Source: Cladocopium goreaui (Eukaryota; Sar; Dinophyceae; Suessiales; Symbiodiniaceae). From it: 64,000 nt of DNA. Numbering within the stretch: position 1 is the stretch's first letter; each line of letters opens with the position of its first letter. Positions 20,098-63,987 of this stretch are shown here, one piece after another. The position numbers and the translations under genes are program-made. The stretch covers positions 39,834 through 103,833 of the forward strand of contig CAMXCT020002338.1 in the NCBI GenBank assembly GCA_947184155.2, given 5' to 3'. Under the pieces are notes generated by a model that did no database searches, had not been told where the DNA came from, and saw nothing but the letters and a program-made list of their open reading frames with translations.

Positions 20098-22036
20098 GTG
20101 ATCTTAGAAAAAGCTGACAGCATTCCAGTTTGTCTCACTGGTAGAGCCTATGCTGATGACATCAGCGGTGTTGGGTCATCCAAGAGCAAAGAGGACCTCC
20201 TCCTTCGCACTCAGAATTTTCACCAGATTGTCAATACATATCAGTCTTGCGGACTAGGCGATATCAGCGTCAAAAAGACATTCACCTTTGGTGATTCTTG
20301 TCTCCAAAGTCAAGTGGCACCTGACTTCCAGCATTTAAATGATTTTCGCTTAGTCGGTGTTTCAGTTGTCTCGCATCTTTTAACTGGTTCTTTCACCAAG
20401 CTAGAGACTAAAAGGCTGCAGACCTGGAAAGCCACGGTCATAAAAGCTCGTCGTCTTTCCTTGTCGTGGCCTGCTAAAGCCAAGACTCTCATTGCGACCC
20501 AGGCACAAGCAACATGGGGGCAAGGAGCTCACCAGCTGCCCAACGATCAGAGAGCGCTGAATCTCGTGAGATCTGCGCTTATGCGAACATTTTGGAATGA
20601 AGACTTTTATTCAATGTCACCGCTTTTACCGTTCGCACTTCTCGAACCAGTTCAGCTTGAGCCCACTTTCGCTAGGCTTTATACAGGTTTGCTAGCCTTC
20701 CAGCGATGCATTGCCAATTGTACACAGAGTGCTCAAACAGTGCAGAGAATTTTCAACTCCGAAGTAAATTCCCAAGTGGGACCGTGTGCTAGAATCCATG
20801 AAATCCTTGAAGGTCCATTAAGCCAACCTACGCGTCAGTTAGTACAAAACCAGATCGAAAACCTTGCTCTATGGAAGCATGACTTGAGAGAATGTTGGAG
20901 AATGTATCTCCTTCGTCAACTCGAACATGAAAGATCGCATGCCAGAGCCTCCCAAATTGATCGAGTACGTACTATGAAATTCCATGACCAACTCCAAGTT
21001 TTGGCTGACGGTCGTGATGTGCCAGATTTGTCGCTCACACAGGAAGAGGCATGGATGAAGATAGCAGTGTTGCGCCGTCTCCTCGCCGGGGGCTTGCTCA
21101 CAGAAGCTAGAATTCGCCATCACAAACGTCGTCAAGATATTCGGCTCTGTTCTTGTAATTCAGGAGAAGCAGCTACTGTGGAACATGTCAGTTGGAGATG
21201 CTTGCATTTTCAAGACATACGTCAGCCCATGATGAATGAATTGGCCGATCAGATTCAACAATTTCCCATTATAACCCAGTATGCCGGTATCTTTTTGAAT
21301 GACAGTCCCCTCAGTCAAAATCAAATCATTTTAGTGCAGTCAACACTCGTGAAAATATGGCAGACAAACATCCAGAGATTTCATGCTGTTGATTTGCAAA
21401 ATGAGCCACCAGATGACCCAGATCACTCTTCGAATAGACGTCACCCACGTGATGCAAATGGCCATTCCATTGTTTTCAAAGAAGGTGGAGGTGTATTTTG
21501 TCAAAAGTGCGGTAAGCACGTGCAAGATTTGGGTCACATCAAGTTAAAAATCACCAAGAAACCTTGTGAATTTGAACACGTCCAACCATCAGATTACATT
21601 GCAGAGCCAGGAAAGTCCAATAATAACCACAGGCTCGAACGAGTTTTTTCAAGAACTCAATCAGAAGTACAACCGTGGCAACCATGATCTTGAATGGAAT
21701 TACAAAATAGGCAAGAAACCTGGGCCTGAGGAAGGTCTTTTCAAGTGCAAAGCATGTGGTAGATCTTGGAAATGGAAAGACAGATGCAACAATTTGCCAC
21801 GCACAATTTGCAACAGAAGTCTCGCCATTGACAGTGAAAGCAGTCACTCGAGATCTTCTGTGACAATCGAAAGGCCTAGAACCAAAACTCCAAAATTCAG
21901 AATCATCGGAAAGCAAACAAGTCGTGAACTTGATGATGAAGACATCGAATCCCATCCATTTTCTGCATTCCCCAATGCATCAGATTCTGCTTCGAGCTCT
22001 GCCAGATACACCCGTTTTCCAACGGGAATTGGTTGA
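20098..22036 (+). mobile_element. 5'-truncated non-LTR retrotransposon: C-terminal part of the reverse transcriptase
   Basis: The frame 20098-21687 opens without an ATG, so the element is cut at its 5' end. It begins at the catalytic motif: GRAYADDISG carries the YADD of LINE-type reverse transcriptases, whose two Asp bind the metal ions. The earlier finger and palm motifs are missing. The thumb and C-terminal region follow. Then comes CSCNSGEAATVEHVSWRC, a C-x-C-x8-H-x4-C zinc-knuckle-like motif usual near the end of LINE polyproteins. After that are two similar Cys clusters. The first (CQKCGKHV with a Cys 17 residues later) is in this frame. The second (CKACGRSWKWKDRC, then LPRTIC) lies in the next frame (21566-22036), so a frameshift near 21640 splits the product. 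The element cannot be autonomous. The long open frame suggests fairly recent insertion. No poly-A tail or target duplication was pinned down. Confidence 0.8.
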
Positions 22037-28034: not shown

Positions 28035-29605
28035 GGGTTTCAATTGAAATCCATCTACATTCAATTGATTTTCCTTTTGAACCTCAAAGAAATCTATTGA
28101 TAAGAAAGGATTTCGATTGAAATCAATTTACTTTCAATTAAATTGAATCTACTTTCACTTGAATTTCCTTTTGAACCTCAAAGAAATCTATTGATAAGAA
28201 AGGATTTCAATTGAAATCAATTGTCAATTTACTTTCAATTAAATTGAATCTACTTTTACTTGATTGTCCTTTTAAAGATCAAAGAAATCCAGTGATAAGA
28301 AAGGATTTCAATTGAACTCAATTTACTTTCAACTTTCAATTTATTTGAATCTACTTTCATTTGTTTTTCCTTTTAAACATCAAAGCAATCTATTGATAAG
28401 AAAGGATTTCAATTGAAATCAATTTACTTTCAATTAAATTGAATCTACTTTCACTTGTTTTCCTTTTGAACCTCAAAGAAATCTATTGATAAGAAAGGAT
28501 TTCAATTGAAATCAACTTACTTTCAATTAAATTGAATCTACTTTCACTTGAATTTCCTTTTGAACCTCAAAGAAATCTATTGATAAGAAAGGATTTCAAT
28601 TGAAATCAATTTACTTTCAATTAAATTGAATCTACTTTCACTTGAATTTCCTTTTGAACCTCAAAGAAATCTATTGATAAGAAAGGATCTCAGTTGAAAT
28701 CAACTTACTTTCAATTCATTTGAATCTAGTTTCAATTGATTTACCTTTTAAACATCAAAGAAATCTATTGATAAGAAAGGATTTCAATTGAAATCAATTG
28801 TCAATTTACTTTCAATTAAATTGAATCTACTTTTACTTGATTGTCCTTTTAAAGATCAAAGAAATCCAGTGATAAGAAAGGATTTCAATTGAAATCAATT
28901 TACTTTCAACTTTCAATTTATTTGAATCTACTTTCATTTGTTTTTCCTTTTAAACATCAAAGCAATCTATTGATAAGAAAGGATTTCAATTGAAATCAAT
29001 TTACTTTCAATTAAATTGAATCTACTTTCACTTGTTTTCCTTTTGAACCTCAAAGAAATCTATTGATAAGAAAGGTTTTCAATTGAAATCAACTTACTTT
29101 CATTTTTTGAATCTACTTTCAGTTGATCTTCCTTTTAAACATCAAAGCAATCTATTGATAAGAAAGGATTTCAATTGAAATCAACTTACTTTCAATTCAT
29201 TTGAATCTAGTTTCAATTGATTTTCCTTTTAAACATCAAAGAAATCTATTGATAAGAAAGGATTTCAATTGAAATCAATTTACTTTCAATTAAATTGAAT
29301 CTACTTTCACTTGATTTTCCTTTTGAACCTCAAAGAAATCTATTGATAAGAAAGGATTTCAATTGAAATCAACTTACTTTCAATTTATTTGAATCTACTT
29401 TCAATTGATCTTCCTTTTAAACATCAAAGCAATCTATTGATAAGAAAGGATTTCAATTGAAATCAATTTACTTTCAATTAAATTGAATCTACTTTCACTT
29501 GATTTTCCTTTTAAACATCAAAGAAATCCATTGATAAGAAAGGATTTCAATTGAAATCAATTTACTTTCAATTCATTTGAATCTACTTTCAATTGGTTTT
29601 CCTTC
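28035..29605. repeat. Satellite array, ~94-bp unit, about 16 copies
   Basis: The anchor GATAAGAAAGG recurs at 28099, 28193, 28294, 28395, 28488, 28582, 28676, 28770, 28871, 28972, 29065, 29157, 29251, 29345, 29439 and 29533. Each unit contains the palindromes ATTTCAATTGAAAT and CAATTAAATTG, then CTACTTTCACTTG, TTTTCCTTTTGAACC and TCAAAGAAATCTATT. Units of 101 bp carry an extra TCAATTT-type 7-mer. The spacing pattern 101-101-93 appears twice, 577 bp apart. AT-rich and without coding potential. Confidence 0.97.
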
Positions 29606-32440: not shown

Positions 32441-34770
32441 GAGGGTTAAGCTGGTAGGCTCCCGAAGAAACCGGGCTCTCCAGGCTCCCATGACAGACCT
32501 GGGCAGATAGAGAAAAAGTTCAAGCACACACCAGTTCCGACTTATGGGGGAAATCCCTGTATCCTCTGAAGTGTCAAAAATGCCATGTGGCAAAACCCGG
32601 TCAACAACATCCACCAACTCACCCACGCAAAGGCTATCGGCCACATGGATTTTGTTTGGGGAGCATTTTTTCGATCCCAAAACTTGTCGGTATCGCGCGC
32701 GGAAGTATTCGCAATGTTGTATGGCGCTTTTGGCACAAACTGCATCGGGCACAGAGTATGCCCTGCTTTTGTTGCTGTTTGATACACCCTTTCCATCCCT
32801 TTCCTGGATTGAAACAGCATTACTGATAGTACTCCCAACTGGATTCTAGATGGTTTCAAGTTTTAAGCGTCAACAGTTTCACTGTGGTGAACCATGAGTG
32901 AAGGAGGCGCTGGTACTATTGAACTGGCATGTGGGGTAAAGACATTGGTTCTTTCTCAGCACCAACTACTACTATTTGCAAATGACTGTTCCAAGGTTGA
33001 ATAGGTTTACCCTGAAAACATGGTCAATAAGTTATTGATGGTTATTGACAATAACAACCTTTACCTGCAAATATTACCCGTTGATTTAAGATGATTTAAG
33101 TAACGGTTCCTGGTGAATCAACATGATTTCGCACATGGTTTCTAGATGTTCTACTTTCCTTAGCAACTGGTTTTACATATTCTACTTATCTAGCAAATGG
33201 TTTCTAGCATTTAGCAAATGATTTCTAGCATTTAGCAAATGATTCCTAATATTTAGCAAATGGCTTCTGGTATTTAGTGAATGGTTTCTACCTGTGCAAG
33301 AAATGGTGTCTGGATTTGACAGAAATGGCAAATAAACAAGCCAACACAGTTCACAATATATATATATATACATACATGTTGTTTTTTAATGCATACATTC
33401 ATGTGTAACTGTACATAATTTTGTGTATGTGTTGAGAAATTTTGATAAGAACTTGTCTTCAAACACAGACAAGACATGAGTTTGGGTCAAAAAAACTACG
33501 GGTACCAATGGACCCAACAAATTGACCTTTATTAGGTTCTGAGACCACCTTTTTTTGGGGGAATCCAACAATCTTGACCAATGCCCAACAGGAGAACAAG
33601 GATTGTTATCAAGGTTTTCAGGCTGAGCATGCAAAGACATAAAACCATAACAATCACGAACAACCACCGGTTATTTCCATTGCAGATGCATCAATGATCC
33701 TTGCAACCAAAAACGTAAGTTAATGATCATAAATTAATTGGGAAATTGTTTTATAAACCTTACATATGATAGGTATCACCCATGTGTACATCCCCTGGAG
33801 TCACCTCACCCAATAACTATCGACGTGTTTTTTTTGCTCAGGTTTATGCGTTTCAGCCCCTACTGAAAGGACTCGCAACTGATGCGAAGCAGCTGAAAAA
33901 ATCGTCACGTACTGATGCAATGTATAAATAATGGATCGTATGTTGGGAATGATTATGATACATTGGGGCTCATGTTTCCGATTTTGGCAAACAAATGAAC
34001 CAGTTGAAAGGCAAAACGCAATCCTTTGAATCCTTTGGTTCAATACTTGAAGGTTATTATTATTATTGCTATTATTATGCATAATACATGCACGTTTATT
34101 AAAATGTATGTTGGGCTGTTATCTGTGAAACATTGATTGTGCACTTAAAAAAACATGTTCAAATATTTGAACATGGGTTTCAATGGATTCAGGGTTACCC
34201 AACATTAAGACAAACCCAAAGATTCCGAGTAATACATAGAGAGTTCATAGTTCACCAACAAAACAATATGGAATAACGGGCTCGGAGCCGAGCAATGGGG
34301 TTGATAGTTGGGATCTTTACGTGAGTTCCAGCATGTTCATTTGCGTGGGCATACGCTGGTATATCCATGTAGATACCTCTAGATTCTTTGTGTCTAATTG
34401 TTTGTGCCTAATTGTGTGTGTGTGTGTCACTTTGGGCCGGTGTATGAGTCTATCTCAGCAGTGATGCAACCCAAGCACGTGACCAGGATTTGACGCCGGA
34501 GAATCAGTAGGGATTCCATGATAGCAATGCAGGAGGATCATAGAAATTGGGAGAACATCTCCATTTATTTGGACATGTACAGTAGGTAATGTCTCACTAT
34601 GTAGATTCACTCTACATGGCTCACAGATATGCGGTTGTGTTTCTACGTGCCCAGGCCCCAGGCTCAAGTGGTTGACACCAGTATCTCACCAAAAGTCAAA
34701 TTCTTTGTGACTCAAAAATGAATGACCCCAACATACCCCCAACAAAAAATCTTGCAGTTTAATAAACATA
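32441..34770. other. Spacer with small repeats; no confident gene
   Basis: The island 32450-32860 is open in several frames on both strands with no way to choose between them. At 33185-33300 a ~22-bp unit TTTAGCAAATGGTTTCTAGC recurs five times. At 33497-33514 the motif GGTACCAATGGACCCA appears; it is also found upstream of both TIR-like copies. Confidence 0.4.
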
Positions 34771-34881
34771 TTCAATCTTGTGGGTCCATTGGTACCCCCT
34801 TTTTTTGGATCCCCACATTTTTTTACTATTGAGAAGCAGACATCTGCCTTGCTTACCTTGGTTCAGTGCCGCGTTTCCGTG

Positions 34882-36620
34882 ATGGATGAGGATCAGGATC
34901 TTGATTCTCACAACAGCCGGCTGCCAGTTTCACCAAGATTTCAGCAAGATTCCAGCAGGAGTTTGTCTCACCAGGTGCCGTCAGAGTTTCTCCAAGGCAT
35001 CCCTTTCCGCTACCTTTTGGCCAGGGCTGGAAGACCTTTCAAAGCGGAAGATTCCTCTGTGGGTCGCAGGAACTTAAGGCAATGTTTAGATTTTGATGCT
35101 TTCATCAGTCATGACTGGCAGACATCTCATTGGTTGAAGTATGGCTCTCTGCTTCTGCTCTTCAATGTGAAAGCTGCTGCGGTTGCAACATTACTATTTA
35201 GCACAGCGGCAGGCTTGCTTATCCAGTACAAGGTGTTGCCTCAGACTGGTTGGGCGATATCCATTGGCTACCTAGTCTTTGTGATTTTCCTGGTTTTTTG
35301 GCAAGACATTCGAGATCTGTTCCTCAGGCCAAGGTTGGCGTTTCTCGACAAGCTGACTATACCACAGGAAGACCAGAGAGCAAAAGAAACGTGCATTCTT
35401 GGACTGGCGGGATTCTTGAAACATTCGAAGAAATTGGTGATTTTGTGGTCTGAATCCTACATTGACCGTGTTTGGTGTGTCTACGAGTTTGCGACGTTCA
35501 TGCGAATTCACCGCGGAGAGAGGCCAGTGCAAGCAATCCCTGTGGCGCTTCCCTTGTTGTTGTTGGTGCACTTTGCTTGGTGGTTTGCCGTTCGGAATAT
35601 GATCTTGTTCATCGCGCTCGGGACTGGGGATGCCCAAAATTTCTTCCCAACGGTGTTGCTGTGCAGCATCAGTGTTTTCGTGATATTTCTCTTCACCTAC
35701 CCGTGTCAATCCCTCATTGGCATGCGCATGACCCAGAACTTGACGGAGCTCAACAGGAAGCTTCGCCGTTTCGAGGTTCAAGCAGCCAAATGTTCCTGCT
35801 GTTCCAAAGGTCACAGGACGCCTGATGGAGAGCTGATCCCGTGTGATCGGGAACTGATTTATCAGAGTTTCTCAGCGTGGTATGATACCAAGACCACAGA
35901 GAATCTGACTGGACTTGACATGTTCAATACAGCTGTTCGACATGAATATGGGACTCAGATTTTGCAGGCCTGTGACGGTTCACAGTTGATTCCATTGAAC
36001 CTGTTCGTCTACGTGGTCTTCAGTATCAATACGCCTTTCTTGATACGCCAAATCCCACAGGCCGGGTAAACCTCGAAGCAAGATGTTCATCACACTATAG
36101 TGGTTGGTTCTTGTTCAGGACCGAAGTGGTTTCATGTCATCCTGATTTTCATTGATTCTACAAACTCATGACGCGTCATGTCAAACCAGGGTTTCGCTTG
36201 GTGTCCTCCACGCAGGCCTTCATAGCAGCCGAGCAGGAAGCGTCGACATGGCAGTTCGCTCTGGCTTTCACCAACAATTTGGCTGCAGGTTGGGCATTTG
36301 TATTTCCGAGTATGCTCGTCTACCTTTGGGCAAACAAAATCGTCTGGTCCCAGACTGGCAGGGTGCCGATGTGCATTAGAATCATCTCGGCTGCTTTGGT
36401 GGTTTGCGTGACAATTGGAGTAGCCTTCTTGGGGCGTGTTTCTGGTATCTTTGCACCTAAATTGAGCTGCATTCCCTTGGCTGTATTCTTGTTCTTCCTG
36501 ATTCTTGGACTTTGTCTACTGCAGTGTAGATGTTGGTCCAAAGATGAAGTGCCAGAAGGACTACCCATGTCTGTTAAAGCAGCGGTTGCGGACGATGACT
36601 CGGACTCCTTTTCGATCTGA
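34882..36620 (+). CDS. TIR-like multi-pass membrane protein, two exons
   Basis: Exon 1 is 34882-36060 (393 codons) and exon 2 is 36216-36620 (134 codons and stop). The intron 36061-36215 starts GC, ends AG, and has CAGGCC at both splice sites; a TAA lies just inside it. I start at the ATG followed by DEDQDLDS because the in-frame ATG at 34780 lies in a repeated non-coding motif. Residues 72-79 are DAFISHDW, the first strand of a TIR-like domain. FLDKLTI (154-160) and LVILWSESYIDRVWCVYE (185-202) match its later parts, including WCxxE, where enzymatic TIR domains carry the catalytic Glu (E202). Two hydrophobic segments (about 96-117 and 123-140) sit between these halves. Further membrane segments lie near 223-244, 255-275 and 372-388, with three more in exon 2. 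A Cys cluster (CSCC, 304-307) lies in a loop. TIR domains cleave NAD+ or act as signalling adaptors; which applies here is unknown. A broken inverted copy lies at 1-855. Confidence 0.75.
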
Positions 36621-43113: not shown

Positions 43114-45256
43114 GCAGGTGGAATGGGAGATGCTGACTGTCGGTGATATTTGTTAAATGTCACCTAATACATATAGATATAGTACTATACATGTATTATA
43201 ATATATATATATATTATACGTACCGTATATATATATATATATGCACATGTATAATAATTGCTATTGTGTATATATATATATACACACACATGTAGGTTTC
43301 ACATCATAGGTTGATAATGGTGTTTTGCCGTTTTTGATGGTGTTGATATGTTCTAAGAGTGTTGGATTAGTAACTTAGCAACCACTCAAAGCCTGGGTTC
43401 AGAAACTCAGATGGCAAGAAGATGCACAGGCCGTCTCAAAAAGAGATGGACAGGTCAGTTGAGTCAAGGTTTCTTCAAATTTGGAACCTTCAAATCCCAT
43501 GGTTTATCAATTTTTTCCTCATTTTAAGTGCAAACAACTGGGGTATCACTATGTATCACGTGTTTTGAGACGAACCCCAAACATGGTAATCCTGTCAGCC
43601 CAAGACCCAAGATCAACTGAAAACCATTTTGCCCACAACGCTGTCGCATGCTGTATTCCAAGTATACCAATATAGATGAGTTGGCTGGGACTTTCTGCTA
43701 ACCAGTTGATTTCTAGTTCTGATACTCCAGAATGTTTCTATCACTATCATCACTTTGGATTTATTTACACTTTGGACAAAGGGTGTCCATTTGCTACTTT
43801 TGTCGACAGCTTGAACGTGCAGACAAATCAAACCGTTTCCAGCTATGTCTGCAGGTCATTTGCAAATCATTCTGCAATGTCCGGCAGAACTCCATGCAGA
43901 AACCAGGCGTTTTAATGAAAGAGACAGATATAACTGATAAAACTCAGAAATGATTTTCCATTTTTCCATGTTCCTACATTTCCAATACATTTCCAATACA
44001 TTTCCAATACATTTCCAATACATTTCCAATACATTTCCAATACATTTCCAATACATTTCCAATACATTTCCAATACATTTCCAATACATTTCCAATACAT
44101 TGGTTTTTTCTGCACATGGTTTATCCCAAAACTCGTTTTGTATGGATCACCGGGGAACAGGCCATGGAGTTGTGGGCTGATGCTACTGATGGCGGTCCCA
44201 TCATTGATTGTGAAGTGAGAAGTTTGCAGCAACTGGGAACGCATGAAACCTAGGGTTTATGGTAGGTTCATGGTGTGTAATATCATGCATAGTGGATCTA
44301 ATGGGGATATGCTGGGGATATAACATGATATAACCCCATTGATGTAGGCTGTACGCAGATGAGGACATAACTATGCAACACAGAAGTTGGAGGTTAGGAG
44401 GGAGACAAAGTTCGTGAGAAACACCAACTACGGTAGATCCACAGATTTGGGATAAAAGGCTTGTTTTGAAATGTAGATCTGTACGTTCCCTACTTGTTTG
44501 AGGCACAGACAAAAGTACACTTGGAGAGTCTTTCAATTCATCAAGCCAACATCATTGACTTTCGTGTTACCTCGTTGCGGAGTTTGATGTGTTTGCCGTC
44601 AATCTACGCTGCTTTCAATGATGTCATCCCATTGCTACAGACAGCACATGACTATTTGCATCCCCAAGCAATCACTTTCATATTGAGAACACAATTCTGC
44701 CCTTTGTGAGAGATGGCTTTGAAATCAGAGGTTGTGTTCGAAGTTGCCTAGCAACCATTTCCAACTGCTAGTCTCCTGGTCGGTAGATAGGCTCATCAAT
44801 GGCGCCCAGCGGTGAGGATCCAACAGCCGAGGTACATTTTGGAGAACCTGTCAGTCACGGTCGGCGCTGAGACGTATTTACGGTCAGAGTAGCTGAGCTA
44901 TGCAGAGCTGCAGCCAGTCAAGGGAGGGCAAATGGGTCAAAATGCATGATGATGGATGTTTTCTTGAAGGTTGTACTATAGGGATCAAAAGGGAAAAGGT
45001 TATACAATGGCTGGGGGTTATAGATTGGTATTAGATTGGTTGCTGTATTCCTGTCAACACCCTGAACCAACCAGAGCAACAGTGTTCAACAGTTCAGCCT
45101 CTCCAAAGATTCCAATGTTTGATTGTGCCGTTCGAAGAGTCTCAGAGCGATATCAACATTCGATCGACATGAGTCATTCCCAAAATTGGAGAAGTTTCTT
45201 GCTTTTGAGTGTCCATCTTGAAGTCCTTTTTGAAAGCCAAACGTCCAAAATGTCAG
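43114..45256. other. Intron or spacer
   Basis: Contains TA-rich tracts (43185-43285) and an 11-bp microsatellite listed separately. Several frames stay open near 43480-43950 and 44490-44710 but lack splice-bounded, recognisable protein. Confidence 0.45.
43975..44101. repeat. 11-bp tandem repeat (TTCCAATACAT), about 11 copies
   Basis: Near-perfect array of TTCCAATACAT. Since 11 is not a multiple of 3, it translates to the same 11-residue pattern in all frames of a strand, which makes open frames such as NVLEMYWKCIG. Confidence 0.95.
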
Positions 45257-48200
45257 GCTGAAGGCTGCAGCTGCAGATGAAGTGGCCGATGCCCCAGATG
45301 TGGTCTCGCCCAACTTCACCCCACCAGCTGCTTCCGGAGCCTCGCCCCGTGCCTCAGCCTCCCGGCGTTCCGCAGCCTCCACAGTGCCGGAGACGGCTTC
45401 AGAGCTGGCCACGCCCAAGGCCAAGGCGAAGGCCATGCCGCTGTCGCCCAAGGCCAGCCCCAAGGCCAGCCCCAAGGCCAGCCCCAAGGCAGCGAAGGCC
45501 GCAGCGAAGGCCGCAGCGAAGGCGGCAGTGAGTCCAAAGGTTTCGAGTCCAGCTCCTTCAGCTGCGGTTTCAGTTGCGTCCGTTGCTTCACCCAAGGCAA
45601 CACCAAAAGCAGCCACCCCAAAGGTAGCCACTCCCAAGGCAAAGCCCAAGTCACCAGCGCCCAAAGCAGCAACGCCCAAAGCACCAGAAACGGCTTCCTC
45701 ACCTACAGCACCTAAAACAATCGCTTCCCCAGCACCAAAAGCAACAGCCTCCCCTCCAGCCCCAACTCCAGCAGCATCTCCAGCTCCAACCCCAGCCCCG
45801 ACCCCCGCATCTTCAGCATCTCCAGCTGCATCTCCAGCAGCATCTCCAGCCCCAAAGGCTGCACCTGAACCCAGACCGGCAAGTCCTGAAGCTCCAAGGA
45901 CGAGAATCAGAGAAAAGTCGCCGCCTCCACCAGCACCAGCTGCGCCGCAGCCCTCACCACCCAGGGAGCCAACTCCCAAGGCTGCAAGTGCAAAGAAGGC
46001 GGAGCCACAAGCTGAGCCAGCACAGAAGGCACCTTGGGGATCCTTGGGGTGCAATTTATGTTTTATGAACATGGGGGTGTAGGTAGGCCTGCTCTTGAAT
46101 AGATCCATGTTGCTCTGGTCAGGCGCAAAGCCCTGCCAAAGAACAGGTGCGGCAGGGGGACAAGAAGGAAGAGCAAGGGCTGAGATGAATTTGGGGAAGA
46201 TGTAGCAAACGGAGCCAACTAAATTACCGTGACCAAGCAGCAACTATATCAAGACATTTGATCAAGTGCGAATGTAGTATGAATCCGTTTGTTATCCATT
46301 TTCATCATGCACCTACGGATATCATACCTCATAATTCCTAAATCTTTGTATACAGAAATGATTATCATCATAGAAAATCCACATCCCTGTTTTACATCTA
46401 TGGTCTATGGTAAGACTATCTGGAATTTACACGCCATCCACCCAGCCATGGCCAGGACCCGCTGGGTGCCTGCCTGCAACGCGAGCAGAGTGCCTCGATG
46501 GCGCTGGAGAAGGCGAAAGCGGCCGAGCAGCGGCTGCCAGCCTTGGAGCAGGATGGCAGTGTATGGGGCTTGGGGGTTGGATGGGGTGCTTCACCCACCA
46601 TTGATCCATTGGGGTTCACCGCTCCAAGCATTTTTGATCCATTTTTGTATGGGTGAACCCACCATAACCAAGCATTTTTATGGGATAGAATCGGACAATA
46701 TGGAGAATGTTGGATCATATGGAACATGAATGGAGCATGATACAAAATGGTGGCGGAAGGTTCAAGACGTATTTAGTGAGATTGGGCTTGGGCGGCTTGG
46801 GATTGGAAAAACAATTTTTTTGTGAAACATGATGGGATAAGAAGTCAATGTTGGAAGGTGGGAAACCACCCCAGACAATGCTCATAATTAGTCGAAATGC
46901 GTTGACCGTTGGCGTCTTTCTTTTTCCAGTTTTTTTTCCTGGGGGTTGTGGATGATTTTTGAACACTTGCCACATCTTGCCACCACATTGTTCCAAAACA
47001 ATTTTCGTTCATCTTCAGCTGGTTCCTGTCGGCCAGGAGATTGTGAAGCTTCAGAGTAGCTTCGATAGGGCCACCGCAGCAGCCGACAAGGCCAGGTTGA
47101 GGTGAGACACTTCTGGGGGGCAATACTGGGGGATCACCTTAATGTGTGGAGGTCTCACCAAAAGACACCACTGGTTCAGACATTGTAGTTCATTCACGGT
47201 GTTCGTTTTTCTAGGATGATCGTGGATGTTCACCATTTGATTGGTTTGTATTGGCCAGAACAATGGACCGCCGCACTGCATTGCTGTGCACATCCAAGGC
47301 AGAAGTCATCCAAGAGATTCTTTTGAAATGGGTCGAACATCCCCACCGTTGTTGAATAGTTGAATCCCCACTTTCTCGATCCATAGACGTGTCAGACCCA
47401 ATTCTATATGGAAACATCAATCGGAAAATGATCATAAACCACGGGATCACCTGGTTAAAGCGAGCGCACCCAAGGTTTACTGTTTACCCAATTTTTGGAA
47501 GCTTCATCATCCATGTTGCAAAGGCCCGTGCGGCCGCGCAGTCGGCGCAGACGGCGGCGGAGAGGGCCGGGAAGGAGCAGCACATTTTGGAACAAACGCT
47601 GCAGGCAGGGAATGGATGGCGGGCTTTGATGGGGAAATGGCAGAATTTTCATTATAATTCCATTGTTTTTGGCAGTTTTGATATCGTTGATTCTACATTT
47701 TGTTTGAAGATATAAGTCAGGAGATAATGATGGAACAAGAGGACCGTGAAACCACTGGAAACGGAGGAAGACACAAAATTACGAGAAAGAACTAGCAAAT
47801 CTGGGCTTTTTAAAAAGAACCTGCGGACGAAACCAATAAACAGAACAACAAGCGTGGGTGGAAGACCAAGCAAGAGAGAAAGAGGTTGGATTATCAATCC
47901 TTAATTGTTGTTTTACATGTAAAAAACATCATAAATCATTCTGCAAATTCTTCATGTTCAAAACCGATTCAAAAATCAAATCCATGGCGTCCCAGTCCCA
48001 GCCCAGGCCAAGAAGCAGGAAGCAGGAGAAGCGGCCAAAGAGGCAGGTCATATGACGGTCATAGGGCCATAGTTTGTTTCCGGCAGCCCGGCAGCCTTTC
48101 GATTTGCTACGTTTGGTCTCACATTCCATCCAGTGTCCTGATATGTCCTGATTCTTTCCAGATCGACAAAAAACTGACAGTTCTGGATGATTGGTGCATG

Positions 48201-49281
48201 ACCATATGCTGTAGAGATTTGCTCTTGCAGGTTCAGAGAAAGACCGAGCTTGAGAAAGCCCTGGCAGAGGCCCTTGCGGATGAAAGGGAACTTTTTAATC
48301 TTTAACCCAATCCGAACCCAAAATGCGTTTAGGACATATTAGCCTCACATAGAAGCTATCAGAAACCTGGTGATAAACGGTCCCAATGACAATGACTTCA
48401 GCATCAGCTCGAGGCCAAGCTGCAGAGGGAGAAAGCTGAGGCTCGGAGCCCAGAAGTTGGTGATAGAACCGGTGAAGTTTGGTGAATATGTTACGATATG
48501 TTACGATGTGCTTCAAACATCTTCAGACTTTAAACATCTTCAAACATCTTCAAACATCTTCAAACATCTTCAAACATCTTCAAACGGTTTTGGCATGTTC
48601 CTCAGGCTACAGATCCCAATTTACAAAGTTTTGGAGTGGGCCTCAGGCTGAAAAAGCAAAGACTGCGATGCCCAAAGCGGCCGCAAAGGACCCGGTACAC
48701 TGGAGGGGGGTAAGGCGAGGTGCTGTTGAGTGCTGAGTGTTGAGTTAAGATCAGCACTTATATACATAGTAGTAGTTGGCTGGGCGCACGTAGAAGGCCG
48801 CGTAACGAAACATTATTTTTGCTTTATCACGTGTTTGCCGTCACAGCGGGAGCGCTTTTTTGTAAATTTTGACCATCTCGACGCAACGAAACGCACATTT
48901 TCTTCTTTTTTTGGTGTTTTTTTTGGTTTGGGGTTTGGGGCGGGGTGGGGGGTAATAACGTTCCTTGGCACGCGCATACATGTTGCCACGTGAGACGTGT
49001 GGGGGGTTGGGGTGGGGTGGGGGGCAATAACGTTCCTTGGCGCTGGACGTCCATGTTTTTTCGACGGTGGTGGTACGACTTGGTATCAGCAATGTAAGCA
49101 AATCTTGCAGTGTGTTCACAGTGACAACTCTTTGCCAGTTCAGTTGTTGCCCCCAATAGACCTCATAGAATTTAGAATTTGCAGATCAAACATATGTCTT
49201 TCTGCTGATCTGAAGGCAGTGCCATGTCGCCAGGAGGCTTCTACACCAAAACGCCGTGGAAGACCTCCGAAGACGACATAG
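45257..49281 (+). CDS. Ala/Pro/Lys-rich coiled-coil protein with C-terminal AT-hook, multi-exon
   Basis: Exon 45257-46028 (257 codons) is a low-complexity region built from SPKA, ATPKA, PAPT and similar units, resembling linker-histone-like tails. After a GC-donor intron (CAGAAG|GC) it joins in phase 0 to 46456-~46558 (DPLGACLQREQSASMALEKA). Next are ~47019-47090, 47524-47603 (ARAAAQSAQTAAERAGKEQ), 48007-48042 (AKKQEAGEAAKE), 48231-~48285 (VQRKTELEKALAEALADER), 48402-48459 (HQLEAKLQREKAEARSPEV) and 48647-48694 (AEKAKTAMPKAAAKDP), all Ala/Glu/Lys/Gln-rich with heptad-like spacing. The last exon, 49234-49281, reads EASTPKRRGRPPKTT and stop; RRGRPPK is an AT-hook that binds the minor groove of AT-rich DNA. 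AAG|GCC is repeated at both sides of the 47091-47523 intron. I infer a chromatin-associated protein. Some middle junctions are unresolved (a piece near 48163-48195 may be another exon), and upstream exons probably exist. Confidence 0.6.
48520..48590. repeat. 10-bp tandem repeat (AAACATCTTC)
   Basis: About seven copies of AAACATCTTC inside an intron of the AT-hook gene. Confidence 0.9.
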
Positions 49282-49986: not shown

Positions 49987-50426
49987 CACACATACATACA
50001 TACATACATACATACATACATACATACATACATACATACATACATACATACATACATACATACATACATACATACATAATCATACATAATCATACATAAT
50101 CATACATAATCATACATAATCATACATAATCATACATAATCATACATAATCATACATAATCATACATAGTCATACATAATCATACATAATCATACATAAT
50201 CATACATAATCATACATAATCATACATAATCATACATAATCATACATAATCATACATAATCATACATAATCATACATAATCATACATAATCATACATAAT
50301 CATACATAATCATACATAATCATACATACATACATACATACATACATACATACATACATACATACATACATACATACATACATACATACATACATACATA
50401 CATACATACATACATACATACATACA

Positions 50427-50460
<34 letters not shown>

Positions 50461-52740
50461 CATAATCATACATAGTCATACATAATCTTACATGATCATA
50501 CATAATCATACATGATCATACATAACCATACATAATCATAGATAATCATACATAAGCATACATAATCACACACAATCATACACAATCATACACAATCGTC
50601 CATACTCAACCATGCTCATACATACTCATACTCATTCATACTCATACATACTCATGCATAATCATACATATTCATACATACTCATACATACTCATACATA
50701 CTCATACATACTCATACATACTCATACATACTCATACATACTCATACATACTCATACATACTCATACATACTCATACATACTCATACATACTCATACATA
50801 CTCATACATACTCATACATACTCATACATACATACATACATACATACATACATACATACATACATACATACATACATACATACATACATACATACATAAT
50901 CATACATAATCATACATAATCATACATAACCATACATAATCATACATAATCATACATAATCATACATATTCATACATAATCATACATAATCATACATAAT
51001 CATACATAATCATACATAATCATACATAATCATACATAATCATACATAATCATACATAATCATACATAATCATACAGAATCATACACAATCATACACAAT
51101 CATACACAATCATACATAATCATACATAATCATACATACTCATACATAATCATACATAATCATACATAATCATACATAATCATACATAATCATACACAAT
51201 CATACACAATCATACACAATCATACACAATCATACACAATCATACACAATCATACACAATCATACACAATCATACACAATCATACACAATCATACACAAT
51301 CATACACAATCATACACAATCATACACAATCATACATAATCATACATAATCATACATAATCATACATAATCATACACAATCATACACAATCATACACAAT
51401 CATACATAATCATACATAATCATCCATAATCATCCATAATCATACATAATCATGCATAATCATGCACAATCATGCATAATCATGCATAATCATACATAAT
51501 CATACATAATCATACATAATCATACATAATCATACATAATCATACATAATCATACATAATCATACATAATCATACATCCATACATCCATAATCATACATA
51601 ATCATACATAATCATACATAATCATACATAATCATACATAATCATACATAATCATACATAATCATACATAATCATACATAATCATACATAATCATACATA
51701 ATCATACATAATCATACATACTCATACATACTCATACATACTCATACATACTCATACATACTCATACATACACATACATACATACATACATACATAATCA
51801 TACATAATCATACATAATCATACATAACCATACATAATCATACATAATCATACATAATCATACATATTCATACATAATCATACATAATCATACATAATCA
51901 TACATAATCATACATAATCATACATAATCATACAGAATCATACAGAATCATACAGAATCATACAGAATCATACACAATCATACACAATCATACACAATCA
52001 TACACAATCATACATAATCATCCATAATCATACATAATCATGCATAATCATGCACAATCATGCACAATCATGCACAATCATACACAATCATACATAATCA
52101 TACATAATCATACATAATCATACATAATCATACATAATCATACGTAATCATACGTAATCATACCTAATCATACATAATCATACATAATCATACATAATCA
52201 TACATAATCATAGATAATCATAGATAATCATAGATAATCATAGATAATCATAGATAATCATAGACAATCATAGACAATCATAGATAATCATAGATAATCA
52301 TACACAATCATACATAATCATACATAATCATACATAATCATACATAAACATACATAAACATACATAAACATACATAAACATACATAAACATACATAAACA
52401 TACATAAGCATACATAAGCATACATAAGCATACATAAACATACATAAACATACATAAACATACATAAACATACATAAACATACATACATACATAAACATA
52501 CATACATACATAAACATACATAAACATACATACATACATACATACATACATAAACATACATACATACATACATACATACATAAACATACATACATACATA
52601 CATACATACATACATAAACATACATACATTACATTACATTACATTACATTACATTACATTACATTACATTACATTACATTACATACATACATACATACAT
52701 GTATACATGTATACATGTATACATATGTACATGTTACAGA
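49987..52740. repeat. 2.75-kb microsatellite complex: (CATA)n and (CATACATAAT)n with variants
   Basis: Pure (CATA)n at 49987-50080 and 50320-50450. (CATACATAAT)n covers most of the rest, with patches of CATACACAAT, CATACATACT, CATAGATAAT, CATACATAAA and CATACAGAAT, each in consecutive runs. An (ATTAC)11 tract (52627-52683) and CATGTATA repeats close it. Patchy homogenisation suggests repeated local expansion. All long open frames here are artefacts. Confidence 0.98.
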
Positions 52741-54180: not shown

Positions 54181-57100
54181 GCGGGAGGCACCAAGCTCGC
54201 CATGATTTTGTTATGGGTAGCTTAAAAAAATCAAACAATTTTTCAGCATATTGATAAAGAATGATAAAGATGGATCATGATGGATCTTAGGGGAAATGAT
54301 TTCAGAAATAGAAAGGGTGGCCTTTGTTCGGCCTTTGTTCGCTCGACAGGTCTATCCTCCTTGCGGGATCGAACAACCGCACATGAACGAGTTGTTGTGT
54401 GGACCTGAGCTTCATTTGGCCTGTGGCAAGAGTACAAACATGTTGGAAGTACGGATGGGTCATGATGGGTCATGATGGGTCCTAGTATTTCCGAATTCTT
54501 GGGATGAAACGGATGAAACATCATTCTTTGCCCAAAATGTCCTAAATACCTTCCATACTCTTTCATATCCTTTCATCAGAAATATTGGATACTTCATAAG
54601 ATATATCCTTCTGAAATAGATCCCCGACAGCATCCCCTACACTCTGCATGGTTTTCCAACGTTTAGCCGGTCCATCTAGCCATCTCCAACGTTTCACCTT
54701 GGAGGCGCCACGCTCCCCGACGGTCCATGGGAACCATGCCAGCAAGTCCTGGCCGGGGGTTTCAGATATCTTCAGATTGTATCAGATGGAGCAACTCGAA
54801 GTATTTCCAAAACATCCAGGGCATGACCTGTCCGAACTGCCTTCCGGAGTGATGCGGCACATCTGTCTAAGTGTCGGTGTATTTCAACTACATTTCAAAG
54901 TTCCGAACATGTCGCCACGATACGTTCCAAGGTGACTCTAGATTCGTGTGGATCACTGTCAGATTCAGTATCGAAGTTTGACTGCCAGTGGCAACTTTGC
55001 ATCTTCGGTGTTCCAAGGATTTGTATCGCCGACGGGTGTTGCACCAGCCCTTGAGAGACGACCTTCCAGGCAGGACTGGGTGGCGACTGGGTGGCTTGAC
55101 AGTTCAAGGCGCGCAAAGTTCCGACCAACAATGGTGGTTTTTGTTGGTGGGATATCAGCCGTTTGGCATACTTTAGTTACTTTAGTTGATTTTCACATAT
55201 TTTCACATACTTAATTTTGGGCCTAGGACCTAGGATATATTGGGGTAGGATTCCACATGATTCCAGAAAATCGATGGAGATTTCCCAACAAATGTCGGCC
55301 GCGCAGGGGCTCGGGACGTTGGCCACCTGGCTCCATGGCACCCGAGGTGCAGCTGAAAAACTTGGATGATTTTGGATAATTTTGAATGGAACCTGGTATA
55401 AATCAAGGCTAAATGGAAATGAGATTGAAATGAGATGATTCAATTCATTCTCAGGGATGGCATAAGATGGCATAAGGACCTTTTAAAAAAAAACATCTGG
55501 TGATGCCAACAACAGACTTCCACTTTCGATCAGGCGCAGCGGCCTCAGCAGGAGAGCTTCTTGGCATATGCCAAGCCCACCACTGCAGGCAGTGGCCCAG
55601 GCACAGCTGAAGGGATGACTTTCGTCTTTGATGTTTTAGGAACAAGAAATCGAAGAATGAAATTGAAATGAGAGTTGAACCACCTAGATTGCTAGTTTGG
55701 ATCCATCAGGCAAATTTTGGACATTTCATGAGGGATGCTGGGATGTTGTTTGTTTTTTACGTGGTGGAGATGGGCAAAAGGAGTAATCTGGTTTCGATGT
55801 TGTAGGGTGCTCTGTTTCAGGAGTGGCAGGGCTTCTAAAGGGTGATTGGCAAGATCTGGCGAAGAAATACTTCTTTCAACTGCAGATTATGTGACCTACA
55901 AGTTGCTTTGCTGTAAGTTTGTTGGTATTTGCTTCAAAGAGGGTGAGGCCAGATATTAGATGATATTAGAATATCATCAGAATATCATCAGAAGATCTAA
56001 TATCATCTAATATCTGGTGATATTTTAATATCATCAGAATATCAATATTTTGGGGCAGTTGGTCACATCCATCTCTCCTGCCCCCAGGGCGCAGAGATGC
56101 ATCCAAGGGCAAGTGGTCAGGGTGCCCAAGGGATCCCAAGGGATTGGTGAGTCGTTTGAGTTGGGCAAGTGGCTCTCAATGGGGCTTGTAGATTGAAGTG
56201 CCATTTGGGGATGGGTCAAAACCCTATACCCATGGTGAACACCAATTCATAGCTGGGATTTATGGATGTTCATCCCACTATAGTAATGTATCTATAGGTA
56301 TTGACCCATACCCATTTCTGTAGATTGAAGTGCCAATCATTTTTGCAGGTGAAGTAATTTTTGGGTATCTTTATGGCACTTGACAGCAATATTTAGCCAG
56401 TCGGCCATGGATAGAAATTGTTGACCACCAACACAGAATGGTTTTAGTTCCGAACCCGAATCAAACTTTGAGGCTTATTGGGTCCCCAAGTTTGAAGTCA
56501 TCATGGAGTGCCAAGCTGAATCCATGTCCAACCATGTCCAACCCAACATCTCCAGGTTGCCTTCCATTTCGAATGGTCGACAGGTGCACCTTTTTGTGGG
56601 TCCACAAAAGGCCCAGCAACACCAAAGGTTTTGGGGTAGCCTGACATCCCCCCCCAAACAGGAGGCAACCATGTACACTGTACACAAATGAATTCAAGTA
56701 CTGGTCCCCAGCAAGAAATGGGGTGCACTGTCCCCAGAATGATCTCCTTTGACTCGCAGGAGAAAACGAATCGTCTCCTTCGAAGCATTTGGTGTTGCCA
56801 GTCCTGAGCCAGTCCTCAGCGCCAGTATGGCGGACCGGATCGAATCATAGCATGGAGGCAGACAGGAATGCTTCCATTGGGAGGTGGTTTGTGGATTGCA
56901 GGGATATGCTGGGATGATGTTCAAAAGACACTTCACAATACATCATAGCACAAACATGCACAAACTATATTTCGTGATATGGGTCCTAATCACAGCTTTT
57001 GAATGTGAGCAACTAGTAGCTGCTTCAAGTTTTGGCGGATGCGCTGACCGTGCATTGTTGAATAGCATCCCATACTCCCACGCCTTGTTTGGCTCATACA

Positions 57101-58737: not shown

Positions 58738-61700
58738 CCTGGATGCCCGGAGGAGCTGCGGCCCAGCAAACGGATACGTCTTACCGATGAGCCCTGCATT
58801 GTTGCCATGCGTCTTGGACTGACCATGGGGTTGAAAGATGTTGAAAGTAGAAACCCGATGTAGGGGATATACGGGTTCATGTCGGGGTCTCTTCTTGGAC
58901 GTATTCAAGCAAGGATGGGATTAAATATACTATACAAGTATACATGTGTTTGGATGACCATATAAGTTATCAACTCAATCGCACCTTTTATACGTAACAT
59001 TTCACTTTTTCCTTGGGCCATAAACATAATTCAACAGCTTAGCGCGTCTCGTTCTGTAACATTTGTCATATTCATTGAATATCATTTCTTGAAGAGTGGA
59101 TGAAAATGGTCTTCCAAATCTCATGGTTTATCATCATTTTCCCAATGAAATTGCAATTGTGGGCATTCCCCCATTGTAGTAGATCATATCATCCAATATA
59201 CCATCAACATTAGCATTAAATCATAGTATGGGGTACACACACATATATATATAGTGTTTATCTACATATGTAATCATATGTATATATATATATACACATA
59301 CACATCCATCCCCATTATACCAGCAATATCACCATTAGATACCAATTTTGACCCATCTCTTATGTATCCTCAAAAGACTGCCAGGCAGCGCATGCTACGT
59401 GGCAAGGAGGGCATCATGTCCCTGGCCCAGGGCATTGTGCACTGGGCACCACCTGCAGCAGCCCTGGAGGCGGGTCGCTCTAGTCTACTGGCAATTGATG
59501 CAAGAAGATCCTTTATTTCACCTTGTTGTGAATGGGTGGTGCCAATATGTGCCAATCATTGGCTGAGGAATTGACGACGTGCTCTCTCAAAAACTTGAAG
59601 TGATTGGACCTGCTCAAAATTTCAGGCAGCGCGGAAGGCAGCAGAAGAGCCTGATACCAACTCTTATGGCCTGGCCCTCAAGAAATTGAGCAGAGACAAA
59701 CTGAGAGACCACGGGCTTGAGATGACTTCTGAAAGTGAATCTGGGTGCTCCCAAGATATACTTGGATATACCTGGATACCTCAAACTCTTCGTTTTCATC
59801 CCCTGAAGATTTGAGAGTTCGTTGATTTTGGGCAGCGCCCAGAAATTGGTGAAATTGGTGAGATTCCCATGTTACATATTGTTATAATGGTTTTGCCTAC
59901 CGCGGCTGTTGGTGATATGTGTTTGTCTCAAAATGTCGGATACCCCCAAATCCTGGTAGACCATGGTATGGTGAGGTGGTTTCCACAGAATTTGTTGAGC
60001 CGAATAGGCGCAGATGATGGCTTGCCAAAGTTTCGCGAAGCCTTGAAGGCGGACCTGTTGGGGATCGGGCCAAAGTGGTTGAACCTTGTGGACAAACTGC
60101 AGGAAGATTTACCAATTTTTTGGTTCATTTTTTGGCTAAACAAATATTATTACTGTAATTTATGACGAAACCACAGTTTCAAGTTTGAACCATGAAGTTC
60201 CCTGAAATCAGCTCAGTGCCTATGACACCCTCCTGGGTGGATTTACTTTCAGGAGAAATTGAAGAAAGAGAACGGCCTGGAGGGTGTTGAGGCATGGCAT
60301 AGCGCGAGAGTTACCTGTTGTTTGGCGCCTTCAAATATTTTACTCGCATGCCTGGTGATATTTAACTACAACTATGTTTTTAGTAATCCCAAATATAGAG
60401 GAGCACAACTACATATCTTTTTGTAACCTACAAACTTGGGGATCTCACAATCATTTGACCGGGATATGATACATATTCTGCAACCACGTATATCAAGTAC
60501 ATATGTGGTTGATTTCCGGCCAGCAACTAATTACTGTCATGATCCAATTCCATCCAAATTCAGTTTCATGTCTTTCCGGGGCCGGCTGGGTTCAACCATG
60601 TTGAACCTATAAGCAGATGATCATACAGGTCATGGTGACGGCTGGAGCTAATCAAGCCTACACCAATTTGGTGTGCACCCTATTGGACGAGAAGGACAGG
60701 AACCGCTGAGCAACTGAGAATCATGGGTCGATGGGGACCAGAAGCAGCATGATTCCCGATCTTATGATCGCTTTGTGGTGCTAATATGCCAGTAATTAGC
60801 AGCAACCATGACATACACATCAACAGCACTACAGGAACACGTCCCCATGTCCCTGTCCGAGCCAGGATTCAGCAGTTCTGTTCAGACCATTCTACTTCAA
60901 CCACCGGTGGGCAGCTCAGCACTGCGAGACCAGTTTCCAGTGAAGTTGGGTTTCCAACACATATCCAGTGACGATGCAAGTTCTCAGGAGGTTTTAAAAA
61001 CCACAAGATAACTTGCAGGTAGTTGTTGTTTTAGTTGTTTTTGAATGATAGGACTTTCATCGAAACTTGGTCCTGACAGGATGGCGCTGCAGATGACAGG
61101 CGGCCATGCCAATGTGGTCCTGGCGCCGTCGACCAAGGATGGGCCCATGGGGTCAGTCCAATGACCAGCATTATGGGCCTGGAATGGCCTCGAAGTCTGT
61201 GAACGGCAGGATTATCTTCCAGATGTGGAGTGGCTGGAGAAGAGGCCATGTCGGCCATGTGTTATTTGGATCGACATGAACAGTCAAGCTGCCTTGGAAC
61301 CCCCCAACACATCCTTGAAATTTGGGGGATCTTCGCATGACCAGTTCGAGATAAGTAACATTGAGTGACCCACCTGATGGCCATCAACCTTGCCAACACC
61401 GTGGCGCTATGGCACCCGCAACCGGTGGAGGTTATCACAAGCCAATGGTGAGAGGATACGGATGGTCACAATCGCCAGGGGCTCAGCTTTGGTGATTTTG
61501 GTGGCTGGGAAGCCCCACAAGTTAGATTTTGATTTTATTCATCGCCAAGCTGTTGGCTTGCGGTTGGATTTGACCTGTGCCCGACCCAATTTTGATGCCA
61601 AGGCTTGCTTGAGATGTATCAAGTCCATGTGTGATTCCACGGCGCATGATCTATCTTGTAAAAGCGGAATGGTGGTGGTTGGTGGATGTGGGGCCTTGCC

Positions 61701-63987
61701 TTTGTCTAGTGTTGATGCCTTCCATTCCTGATTTGTACTCAGTACTCGTTATCTTTAAGCATGACTTCTGTCTGAAACATTGAAAGCTTGGAGGTGAACC
61801 CTGGCAATCCAACTGGCGTGATCCTTCCAAAAGACTTGCCCGGCAACACAGTGGTGGATTTGGTGGCAAAGCCAATAATCATAAGCCCCAATTGAGTATG
61901 ATTTACTCTGACATATGGTTGGAATTTATTGGATATGATCGGGTTTAACCACATTCACTGGAAGCCAAGTATTCTTTTGCTCACTAGTTTCCCTGATTTT
62001 CCCTGGTTCATGTGCCCGGAAGGCTTGAACGATTTTCTGCCGCATGCCAGCGGCACCAAGTATGGATGGTGGTTGACAACACCTATGAACACTTCACGTA
62101 TGAGGAGGTGGGATCCAGCTCTGAAGATATCCTTTTCTGGACCATCAAAACGACATCTTTCCTATGCAGGAAGGGCACGCTCCCCACTGTTGCGTCAGTG
62201 GTGACCACGTGGTGAACGTTTTCTCCTTCAGCAAAGCCTTCGGCATGATGGGCTGGAGAATAGGCACTTGGGCTAAAGTTGGCCAAAGGTTGGAGGGCCA
62301 GAAAGGGGCAGTGGGCTGTTTTCATTGAACACCCAGGTGTTTTTTTTCTGCATGTTTCCAACCATACCAATATTAGCATGAGTTTAGGGGCAACTCAGTA
62401 ATGAGCCGACTTTCTGTGGGATGAGCTGAGGCTACCTGGACTGAACCTCAGACTGTTGGGACGGGAATCAAAGATTGGAAAGAGTCAAAGATCAAGACAA
62501 GTCATAGCTGACCCATGGAAATGGACTGAGTATGACTGAGTTTACCATTTCTTCATATTCTTTGACTACTTTCATTTGGGGCCCTCGAGCTTTTGTGTTT
62601 GATTCGCAATGAACTTCGCAGTGATTGGCCAGTCAAATCCTGACCGTCCAAAACTACGCCTGGGAAAATTGGGAAGACGTCAGCCGTGTCCGAGGCGTTT
62701 CCCCCCAGCCTTGGTCCTGAGCTGATGAAGGCCCACAGACCGGTCATGGCGAAGCAAAAAAATACACGGACAAGATTTTTCCGATGGTGTTTCCGGACCT
62801 ATGTCCAAACTAATGAGTTTTTTTAAAACTACATTATCCCCATGATTTTCCCCATATGTTTCCATCGTTTTTTGAACTTGTCCTGTGAATTTATCCTAAC
62901 TCCGTGTTCTGACGAATCTGCCCAGGTGCAGGATACCATTGCCATTTGCCCAGCCGTGGCTTCGCAGAAAGTGGCCATGGCTGCGTTGGAAAGTGGACGC
63001 CAGTGGGTGTGGGGAAACTCAGCCGGGGTTGGTAAGTCCCAGGCTGTGGATGGAAATGTGGTGCCTTTTTTTGGGGGTTGGAATTTCGAAACATCACCCT
63101 GAAGAGACTGTAACTAGATATGATCCACTTGGATGTTGAGTGGTGTTCGAAAGGAAACGCGTCACTACACCTGATTCTGGTCTTACTTACGTCTAAAAGA
63201 ACGGACTTTTGTACTGATTTCTCTTGGCCGGTCCTGATCTTGTCTGGTTTACATCCACAAGATTCCACAAGGTTTAATTTTAGTTCTTCAAGATTTGATT
63301 TGAATCATTTCTTCCCAAGAATTTGCCGCAGATCTCCCACAGCCCGGATCATGCCCTTGCGCATCCTTTTCGGCCGAGGAAAGATCACGTCACAGGGCTG
63401 AAAGAGAACCGTCGCCTGGTCGTGGCCGCTGTAGAGGAGACCTTGGGGAAAGGTGCCGTGGCAGGCGCGGCCAAAAGCTCACAGCTTTCTGATTTGGGAG
63501 TTTTGACATTCATCATCTTCAGTCATAAAACGGTGAGTTTTCTACCTGAAAGAACACCGTGTAAGTCCATGGAAGTCATGTAACTAAGAAGAAACCATTC
63601 CAAGACATCAAAACCCAAAGTGGGCTGGAAGGTGGGTCTGGTGCCATCTATTTGATGGTGAAGTTGCCAGCTGGATTTGAAAATGTTTCCTGGCTCAAGG
63701 ATGTGTGGTGTCCTGCGTGTTTGTTTGGTCAATCAAGGCCTAAGGTACTGTTCGAGATTTGAGACGGGCTAAGTGAAGGTTTGGACAGCTACGAACTCTC
63801 GGAGACGAGGGATTAAAAACCGTTCATTTGAGGGATTCGCAACATAATGAGCAAGCTTCATTTCCCAATACTGATTCAGTGGTTAATGCTGGATCATGAT
63901 CCTGGACTTTGAATTCAGCGTGGGGCAATTTTTTGTGCCACGCACTTCCGAGGACACCCGTGTGGTGGAATGGTTGAGTGAGAAGCG
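58738..63987 (+). CDS. Class I/II PLP aminotransferase, ISS1/VAS1-like, at least 17 exons, 3' end beyond window
   Basis: Exons (bp): 58738-58808, 59385-59469, 59626-59668, 60008-60048, 60253-60291, 60629-60694, 60866-60906, 61080-61137, 61210-~61244, 61794-61837, 62023-62104, 62170-62263, 62684-62730, 62926-63031, 63396-63464, 63632-63699, 63953-63987. The joined product follows plant ISS1/VAS1 aromatic aminotransferases nearly throughout. Landmarks are MSLAQGIVHWAPP, VMVTAGANQAYTN, AVLFRPFYFNHRMALQMTGG, VNPGNPTG, VVDNTYEHF, HCCVSGDHVVNVFSFSKAFG (its Lys forms the PLP Schiff base), VQDTIAICPA, GSGAIYLMVKLP and DTRVVEWLSEK. The Asp and Tyr of VDNTYEHF contact PLP. In plants the enzyme moves amino groups between methionine or aromatic amino acids and their keto acids. 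Donors are GC at nine resolved junctions, GA at four and GT at three. One short piece between 61245 and 61793 is unresolved (a PQPVE peptide ending near 61433 is possible). The start codon was not found. No key residue seen is lost. Confidence 0.88.

Follow-up and report, generated by a model that had tools for sequence, protein, structure and literature searches.

How are the borders of a gene recognised when most of its introns begin with GC or GA instead of GT, and what in the splicing machinery would allow it? The question is raised by the end of a 64,000-nucleotide stretch of the Cladocopium goreaui genome (G000:C2338:39834-103833; hereafter the window), where a pyridoxal phosphate (PLP) aminotransferase gene lies on the + strand, divided into tiny exons that join in phase at every junction in a hand-built exon model and in spliced alignment. 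From the comparisons given below we hold with high confidence that this would be a nuclear gene of an ordinary kind, encoding a class I/II PLP-dependent aminotransferase, and that its at least 20 short introns would be removed by the major spliceosome with a relaxed second base (+2) at the donor. GC donors are strongly supported by the alignments of this gene, and GA as a donor class is supported as well, with a smaller margin.

Gene structure and product

The exon model was built by hand and tested with our own spliced protein aligner, for which the query was PDB chain 7vrx. The contig ends at the window end, and when the joined exons served as a DNA query the gene was met again, with constant spacing, on a second contig (C5826) that adds exons 19-21 and the stop codon; introns 19 and 20, read on this contig, occupy the window-equivalent positions 64278-64464 and 64542-64709. 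The result is a gene of 21 exons and 20 introns with a product of 401 residues, which agrees with and extends the claim of an earlier note on this DNA that there are at least 17 tiny exons. The two contigs differ by four mismatches in 9,714 bp (at window positions 54946, 56524, 60170 and 63793) and none of the four falls inside a model exon; the copy on C5826 is therefore probably a haplotype or a redundant contig. An intronless retrocopy, which would have been a natural cDNA, was not found in the DNA search, whose 34 pieces from two scored candidates all lay on these two contigs with constant spacing.

Within the window the exons span 58738 to 63987 (or 63972). They measure 35-102 bp (the last in-window exon is 35 or 20 bp long) and the introns 65-576 bp, with a mean of about 241 bp. 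The small exons that the earlier note described are thus present, and its ranges (exons of 35-106 bp, introns of about 65-570 bp) are to be corrected slightly. It had also stated that all joined phases agree, and this is borne out by the joined frame of 401 codons, in which the sole stop is the final one.

The complete gene matches PF00155 (aminotransferase class I/II) at 180.5 bits, with a cut-off of 19.7, over profile positions 3-361 of 361. Its product matches 7vrx at 400 bits over 390 of the 401 residues and covers residues 9-396 of that chain. The segments SFSKAFGMMGWRIG, NPGNPTG and VDNTYEHF align with 7vrx, and we take SFSKAFGMMGWRIG to be the region of the PLP-binding lysine; the loop in this region, in exon 13, is 3 residues shorter than in 7vrx. 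Adding exon 1 raised the match to 7vrx from 337.6 to 352 bits. An alternative frame of exon 1, whose GA donor would be at 58786, reached 340.6 bits compared to 352 with the GC donor at 58809, and was dropped. The ISS1/VAS1 type is a family label that we propose as a candidate name; the chain 7vrx is labelled only Aminotransferase. An activity of ISS1/VAS1, the transfer of an amino group between methionine and a tryptophan precursor, is mentioned in an excerpt of PMC9957770.

The best 9 of 36 candidates in a PF00155 search of the same genome all lay on one 7.4 Mb contig (G000:C1). There, aminotransferase frames without stops or introns stand in an algal assembly, and the contig is probably a bacterial companion. 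Bacterial relatives at seven loci were considered as guides to the borders, but at 22-28% identity they were too distant and were not used.

Table 1. Exons of the aminotransferase gene in the window, with their donors. "All three" means the hand model, the per-junction comparison and the full-locus aligner.
Exon	Position	Strand	Donor	Remarks
1	58738..58808	+	GC 58809	...KRIRLTDEPCIVAM; 5' border proposed; 7vrx 352 bits; narrow aligner margin: GC 587, CG 586, GA 583, GT 576
2	59385..59469	+	GC 59470	all three
3	59626..59668	+	GC 59669	all three; among five in-window aligner runs, GT+GC alone used this exon
4	60008..60048	+	GC 60049	all three
5	60253..60291	+	GC 60292	all three; GT at 60310 is 4 units lower
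6	60629..60694	+	GA 60695	VMVTAGANQ motif; sole firm GA
7	60866..60906	+	GT 60907	all three
8	61080..61137	+	GA 61138	ambiguous; GG at 61141 is 4 units higher, AC 1 higher
9	61210..61244	+	GC 61245	or GA 61242 (4 units higher; pick of full-locus aligner)
10	61431..61473	+	GC 61474	all three; 3 units above next
11	61794..61837	+	GC 61838	NPGNPTG motif; 15 units above next dinucleotide; full-locus aligner agrees
12	62023..62104	+	GA 62105 or 62102, or GT 62108	VDNTYEHF motif; ambiguous: AG 592, GA 584, GT 582; full-locus aligner picks 62102
13	62170..62271	+	GC 62272	SFSKAFGMMGWRIG; GC 583, next 578, GT 571
14	62695..62730	+	GC 62731	all three
15	62926..63008	+	GT 63009	all three
16	63379..63464	+	GC 63465	all three
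17	63632..63684	+	GT 63685	all three
18	63953..63987	+	GT 63988	or earlier GT 63973 (pick of full-locus aligner)

Donor and acceptor preferences

With AG acceptors in the window, the alignment to 7vrx scored 459 with GT donors alone, 568 with GT and GC, and 594 when GA was permitted as well; over the full locus the scores were 527, 661 and 687, respectively. Among 105 sets made of GT plus two other dinucleotides, {GT, GC, GA} ranked first over the full locus (687), followed by the set with AC and GC (679), and the median was 598. When a single dinucleotide was allowed as donor in the window, again with AG acceptors, GC scored 520, GA 491, GG 485, AG 479 and GT 459, and the other 11 were lower. 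As a third dinucleotide on top of GT and GC (568), GA was the best, at 594, and AC the next, at 586. These alignments show the mostly GC and some GA donors that had been claimed from the sequence, and the protein-to-genome alignment that the earlier note had proposed as a check, run here with 7vrx as query, gives 594 in the window compared to 459 with GT only.

For the acceptor, AG followed by G, written AG(G) hereafter, scored 608 when any donor was permitted, compared to 361 with C, 352 with A and 281 with T after the AG. All 20 acceptors of the hand model are of this form, where 15 of 16 had been reported before. The AG(G) acceptor is strongly favoured; its presence at 20 of 20 is nevertheless a property of the hand model and not free of choice, because a restriction to AG(G) lowers the score by 6 units (from 594 to 588 in the window and from 687 to 681 over the full locus) and one window run with GT, GC and GA donors took one AG(A) acceptor, through a different path between exons 2 and 4.

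In the hand model, GC opens 12 of the 20 introns (1-5, 9-11, 13, 14, 16 and 19), GA three (6, 8 and 12) and GT five (7, 15, 17, 18 and 20); acceptors aside, the 18 donors of the window part are 11 GC, 3 GA and 4 GT. The aligner's own model of the full locus, obtained with GT, GC and GA donors and AG(G) acceptors, also has 20 introns, with 11 GC, 4 GA and 5 GT. From the count of nine GC, four GA and three GT among 16 donors in the earlier note, the GC majority stands, but the figures do not match the 18 donors of the hand model in the window, and four GA donors are reached by the aligner over the whole gene.

We then compared the donors junction by junction for introns 2-17, scoring all 16 dinucleotides with AG(G) acceptors while the remaining model was fixed. 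GC, GA or GT came top at 14 of the 16 junctions (9 GC, 2 GA and 3 GT); the chance of this at a background rate of 0.18 is 3.8e-9, an approximate value with the neighbouring borders fixed. The modelled donor itself was the top one at 13 of 16. The GA of intron 6 (60695) scored 583, compared to 574 for the next dinucleotide and 567 for GT, and it was picked too in the run with any donor and AG acceptors and by the full-locus aligner. Margins are small at several junctions, for example at intron 10 (GC 583, TT 580). One GA donor (60695) is firm and up to four are possible, introns 8 (GG 587, AC 584, GA 583), 9 (GA at 61242 587, GC 583) and 12 being ambiguous with one homologue, and intron 18 has two GT borders. 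The statement that each junction can be placed to the base was accordingly too strong.

Two further comparisons concern the surroundings of the borders. Close to the acceptors, within the final 27 bases of 16 introns, AGG is absent, and AG with A, C or T after it occurs 12 times; elsewhere the counts are 24 and 139, respectively. This signal is weak. The 16 donors of introns 2-17 pair with U1 small nuclear RNA (snRNA) at 3.75 of 9 positions, compared to 3.13 in decoys (permutation 0.007), with borders that were partly picked by the model.

Several results speak against this account of the gene and have to be set beside it. When any donor was permitted with AG acceptors in the window, the score rose from 594 to 617; this probably reflects overfitting, because only 9 of the 15 donors in that run are GT, GC or GA. 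A run with both donors and acceptors free gave 21 scattered introns and was likewise taken as overfitted. At 3 of the 16 junctions another donor outscores the modelled one, and the aligner's model departs from the hand model at introns 9 (GA 61242), 12 (GA 62102) and 18 (GT 63973). All borders were derived from the genomic sequence with a single homologue, 7vrx, as guide. The first coding exon with the start codon was not found, and the 5' border of exon 1 (58738) is a proposed one. Finally, the best NCBIfam model, NF004621 (PRK05957 aminotransferase), was well under its cut-off when a 325-residue draft was compared (253.2 and 498 bits, respectively).

Splicing RNAs and a possible mechanism

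The 21-nucleotide DinoSL sequence has 172 exact copies in the 1.17 Gb genome and its reversed control has none. The source genome is that of a dinoflagellate and carries the spliced leader; in our judgement its size and splice pattern fit Symbiodiniaceae. The list of the first 8 of the 172 copies names many contigs, and some copies may be relics in retroposed genes.

At least 22 copies of the U1 gene were found with Rfam, of which 14 exceed the family cut-off and 8 do not. This number is a minimum: of the 23,189 places met in a first look, 42 candidates were scored. Eighteen of the 22 are on three contigs, C4692 (7), C5084 (7) and C4795 (4). The seven on C4692 recur about every 2.8 kb, and G000:C4692:18023-21181 is one unit of a tandem array with U6, U4, U5, U2, U1 and signal recognition particle (SRP) RNA on the same strand. 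In one array unit, the recognition segments of U6 (ACAGAGA), U2 (GUAGUA) and U5 (loop) are standard. The 5' end of U1 is AAACUUACCUGG in 19 of the 22 listed copies, and the remaining three have single changes at nucleotide 1, 2 or 8. Nucleotide 7, which faces the donor base +2, is A in all 22, and a U1 variant matching GC or GA donors was not found among them.

In the mechanism that we propose, the spliceosome would want G at donor position +1 and tolerate C, T or A at +2, aided by the AG at the exon end, and at the acceptor it would want AG and then G. Because the U1 snRNA is standard, GC and GA donors would presumably be accepted although +2 is mismatched, the proofreading that spliceosome proteins perform being relaxed. 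With position 7 of U1 standard in all 22 listed copies, the tolerance at +2 finds no explanation in RNA here; this directs attention to proteins, or to pairing of low stringency, and away from U1 RNAs that match the odd donors. We infer that proteins and not RNA variants explain the tolerance, and that the transcripts would use the modelled borders. A stricter version, in which the +2 base is read by no RNA, the signal consists of G at +1 and the exon-end AG with most of the information in the AG(G) acceptor, and proofreading was loosened in the proteins while the snRNA genes stayed unchanged, is tentative, and we would sooner expect it to fail than to hold.

The standard U1 is no surprise, because a cluster of all five snRNAs has already been reported for S. 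minutum (in the available part of PMC4083563) and dinoflagellate snRNAs are, according to excerpts of reviews, well conserved. In two Amoebophrya strains, U1 was not found, as far as the excerpt of PMC7789003 tells. Among the matches listed for the literature on dinoflagellate snRNAs and donor recognition, a title on U1 variants was absent.

Alternative explanations

The simplest alternative is that only GT donors are used and that our aligner misreads other sites as GC or GA. Such misreading would be easiest at intron 12, where a GT (62108) is at most 2 units from GA, and at intron 5, where a GT (60310) is at most 4 units from GC. However, a model with GT alone loses heavily both in the window (459 vs 594) and over the full locus (527 vs 687), it deletes or inserts residues, and at intron 11 its score is 67 units lower; we find this explanation scarcely credible. 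We give just as little credence to a decayed pseudogene copy in which the borders have little meaning. Redundancy exists, since the gene is on two contigs, but the frame of 401 codons is open to the stop codon with its motifs kept, and the second contig has placed none of its four mismatches in 9,714 bp in an exon.

Other explanations accept the odd borders and assign them to a different cause. The introns might be recent insertions made by transposons (introners), with borders that derive from target duplications. Of 17 introns, 11 have the same 3 to 5 letters at the borders of their two ends, and introners have been reported in dinoflagellates (excerpts of PMC10666404 and PMC11453091); a splice-site consensus would likewise yield the shared AG(G). 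An introner criterion described in PMC10666404, as excerpted, is inverted repeats of 8-20 nt at most 30 bases from both ends, and a scan for exact 8-nt inverted repeats in that range found none in any of 17 introns (introns 1-17, intron 1 with the earlier donor 58786). Moreover, in a comparison at the level of the window, no scanned intron had a match at E 1e-3, either to another intron or elsewhere in the window, and a recent origin as introners is improbable. Special U1 variants in which position 7 is altered so that they pair with GC or GA donors are no more probable: the many U1 genes of the genome make variants possible, but A occupies this position in 22 of 22 listed copies, a list that is a lower bound and could miss a diverged variant. 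Tolerance at +2 by an ordinary major spliceosome is thus the reading that we prefer.

Other features of the window

Outside the aminotransferase gene, the window has two segments of about 900 bp (38-937 and 34686-35568) that are 90% identical in inverted orientation, perhaps a repeated gene or a mobile copy. An open reading frame at 34780-36069 scores 21.2 bits for TIR in Pfam, just under the cut-off of 21.3, and looks membrane-like by eye. Another open frame of 529 codons (20098-21687) has no Pfam match at E 0.01; it contains a YADD stretch, which we take to be as in reverse transcriptases. At about 46200-48600 the + strand has brief open stretches with much A, E, K and R, which by eye resemble exons for a coiled coil in a further gene of this strand. 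Tandem repeats include about 260 copies of the 10-bp unit CATACATAAT with 93% match in a low-GC block (about 22-27%) at 49991-52626, a 94-bp unit in 16.4 copies at 28038-29604, which is seen too as a higher unit of 483 bp, and the 11-bp unit TACATTTCCAA in 11.5 copies with 100% match at 43975-44101.

Relation to known splicing systems

The mode of splicing at this locus is already known, and the locus illustrates it well, because GC and GA donors with AG(G) acceptors, as well as a splice mutant, have been published for Symbiodiniaceae. The locus has the features of the dinoflagellate GC/GA-AG(G) intron, namely donors of G plus T, C or A and AG(G) acceptors, with three donors ambiguous. The available part of PMC4083563 describes GC and GA donors besides GT, with G after the AG, and that of PMC5177918 lists the predominant donors. 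An excerpted table of relatives in PMC7789003 gives 48.23 vs 51.77%, 0.26 (read as 26%) vs 73.95% and 65.38 vs 25.30% for GT-AG and GC/GA-AG introns, respectively. In PMC5818653, according to the excerpt, the use of a GA-AG(G) intron in vivo is supported by a splice mutant, and the recognition mechanism is said to remain unknown. As a test of the splicing mode, which the earlier note had seen in it, the locus is therefore not new, since genome-wide frequencies and a splice mutant are in print in excerpts of these four papers. A useful addition is the finding of a standard U1 in the same genome as the GC and GA donors. Because gene finders restricted to GT would mangle the aminotransferase gene, it is also a useful worked example for the annotation of dinoflagellate genomes.

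The closest likeness is to other Symbiodiniaceae (Breviolum minutum and Symbiodinium microadriaticum), for which excerpts report GT, GC and GA donors, AG often followed by G, and about 20 exons per gene. Exons and introns are shorter here, with exons of 35-102 bp compared to reported means of about 102-110 and a mean intron of about 241 bp compared to about 505-517. The protein compares well with 7vrx (404 residues, labelled Aminotransferase), which has the same motifs. The URA3 gene of Symbiodinium (PMC5818653, as excerpted) shares the GA-AG(G) intron, and in its mutant an AG with A after it was passed over in favour of the next AG(G); in contrast to our work on sequence alone, a mutant was studied there, and an upstream AGG was unused. 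GA donors at scale are also described for the copepod Eurytemora affinis, in which GA and GG together account for about 12% of introns (PMC5714493), but this is an animal, and the available start of that paper's abstract does not describe a GC majority such as the one in our gene.

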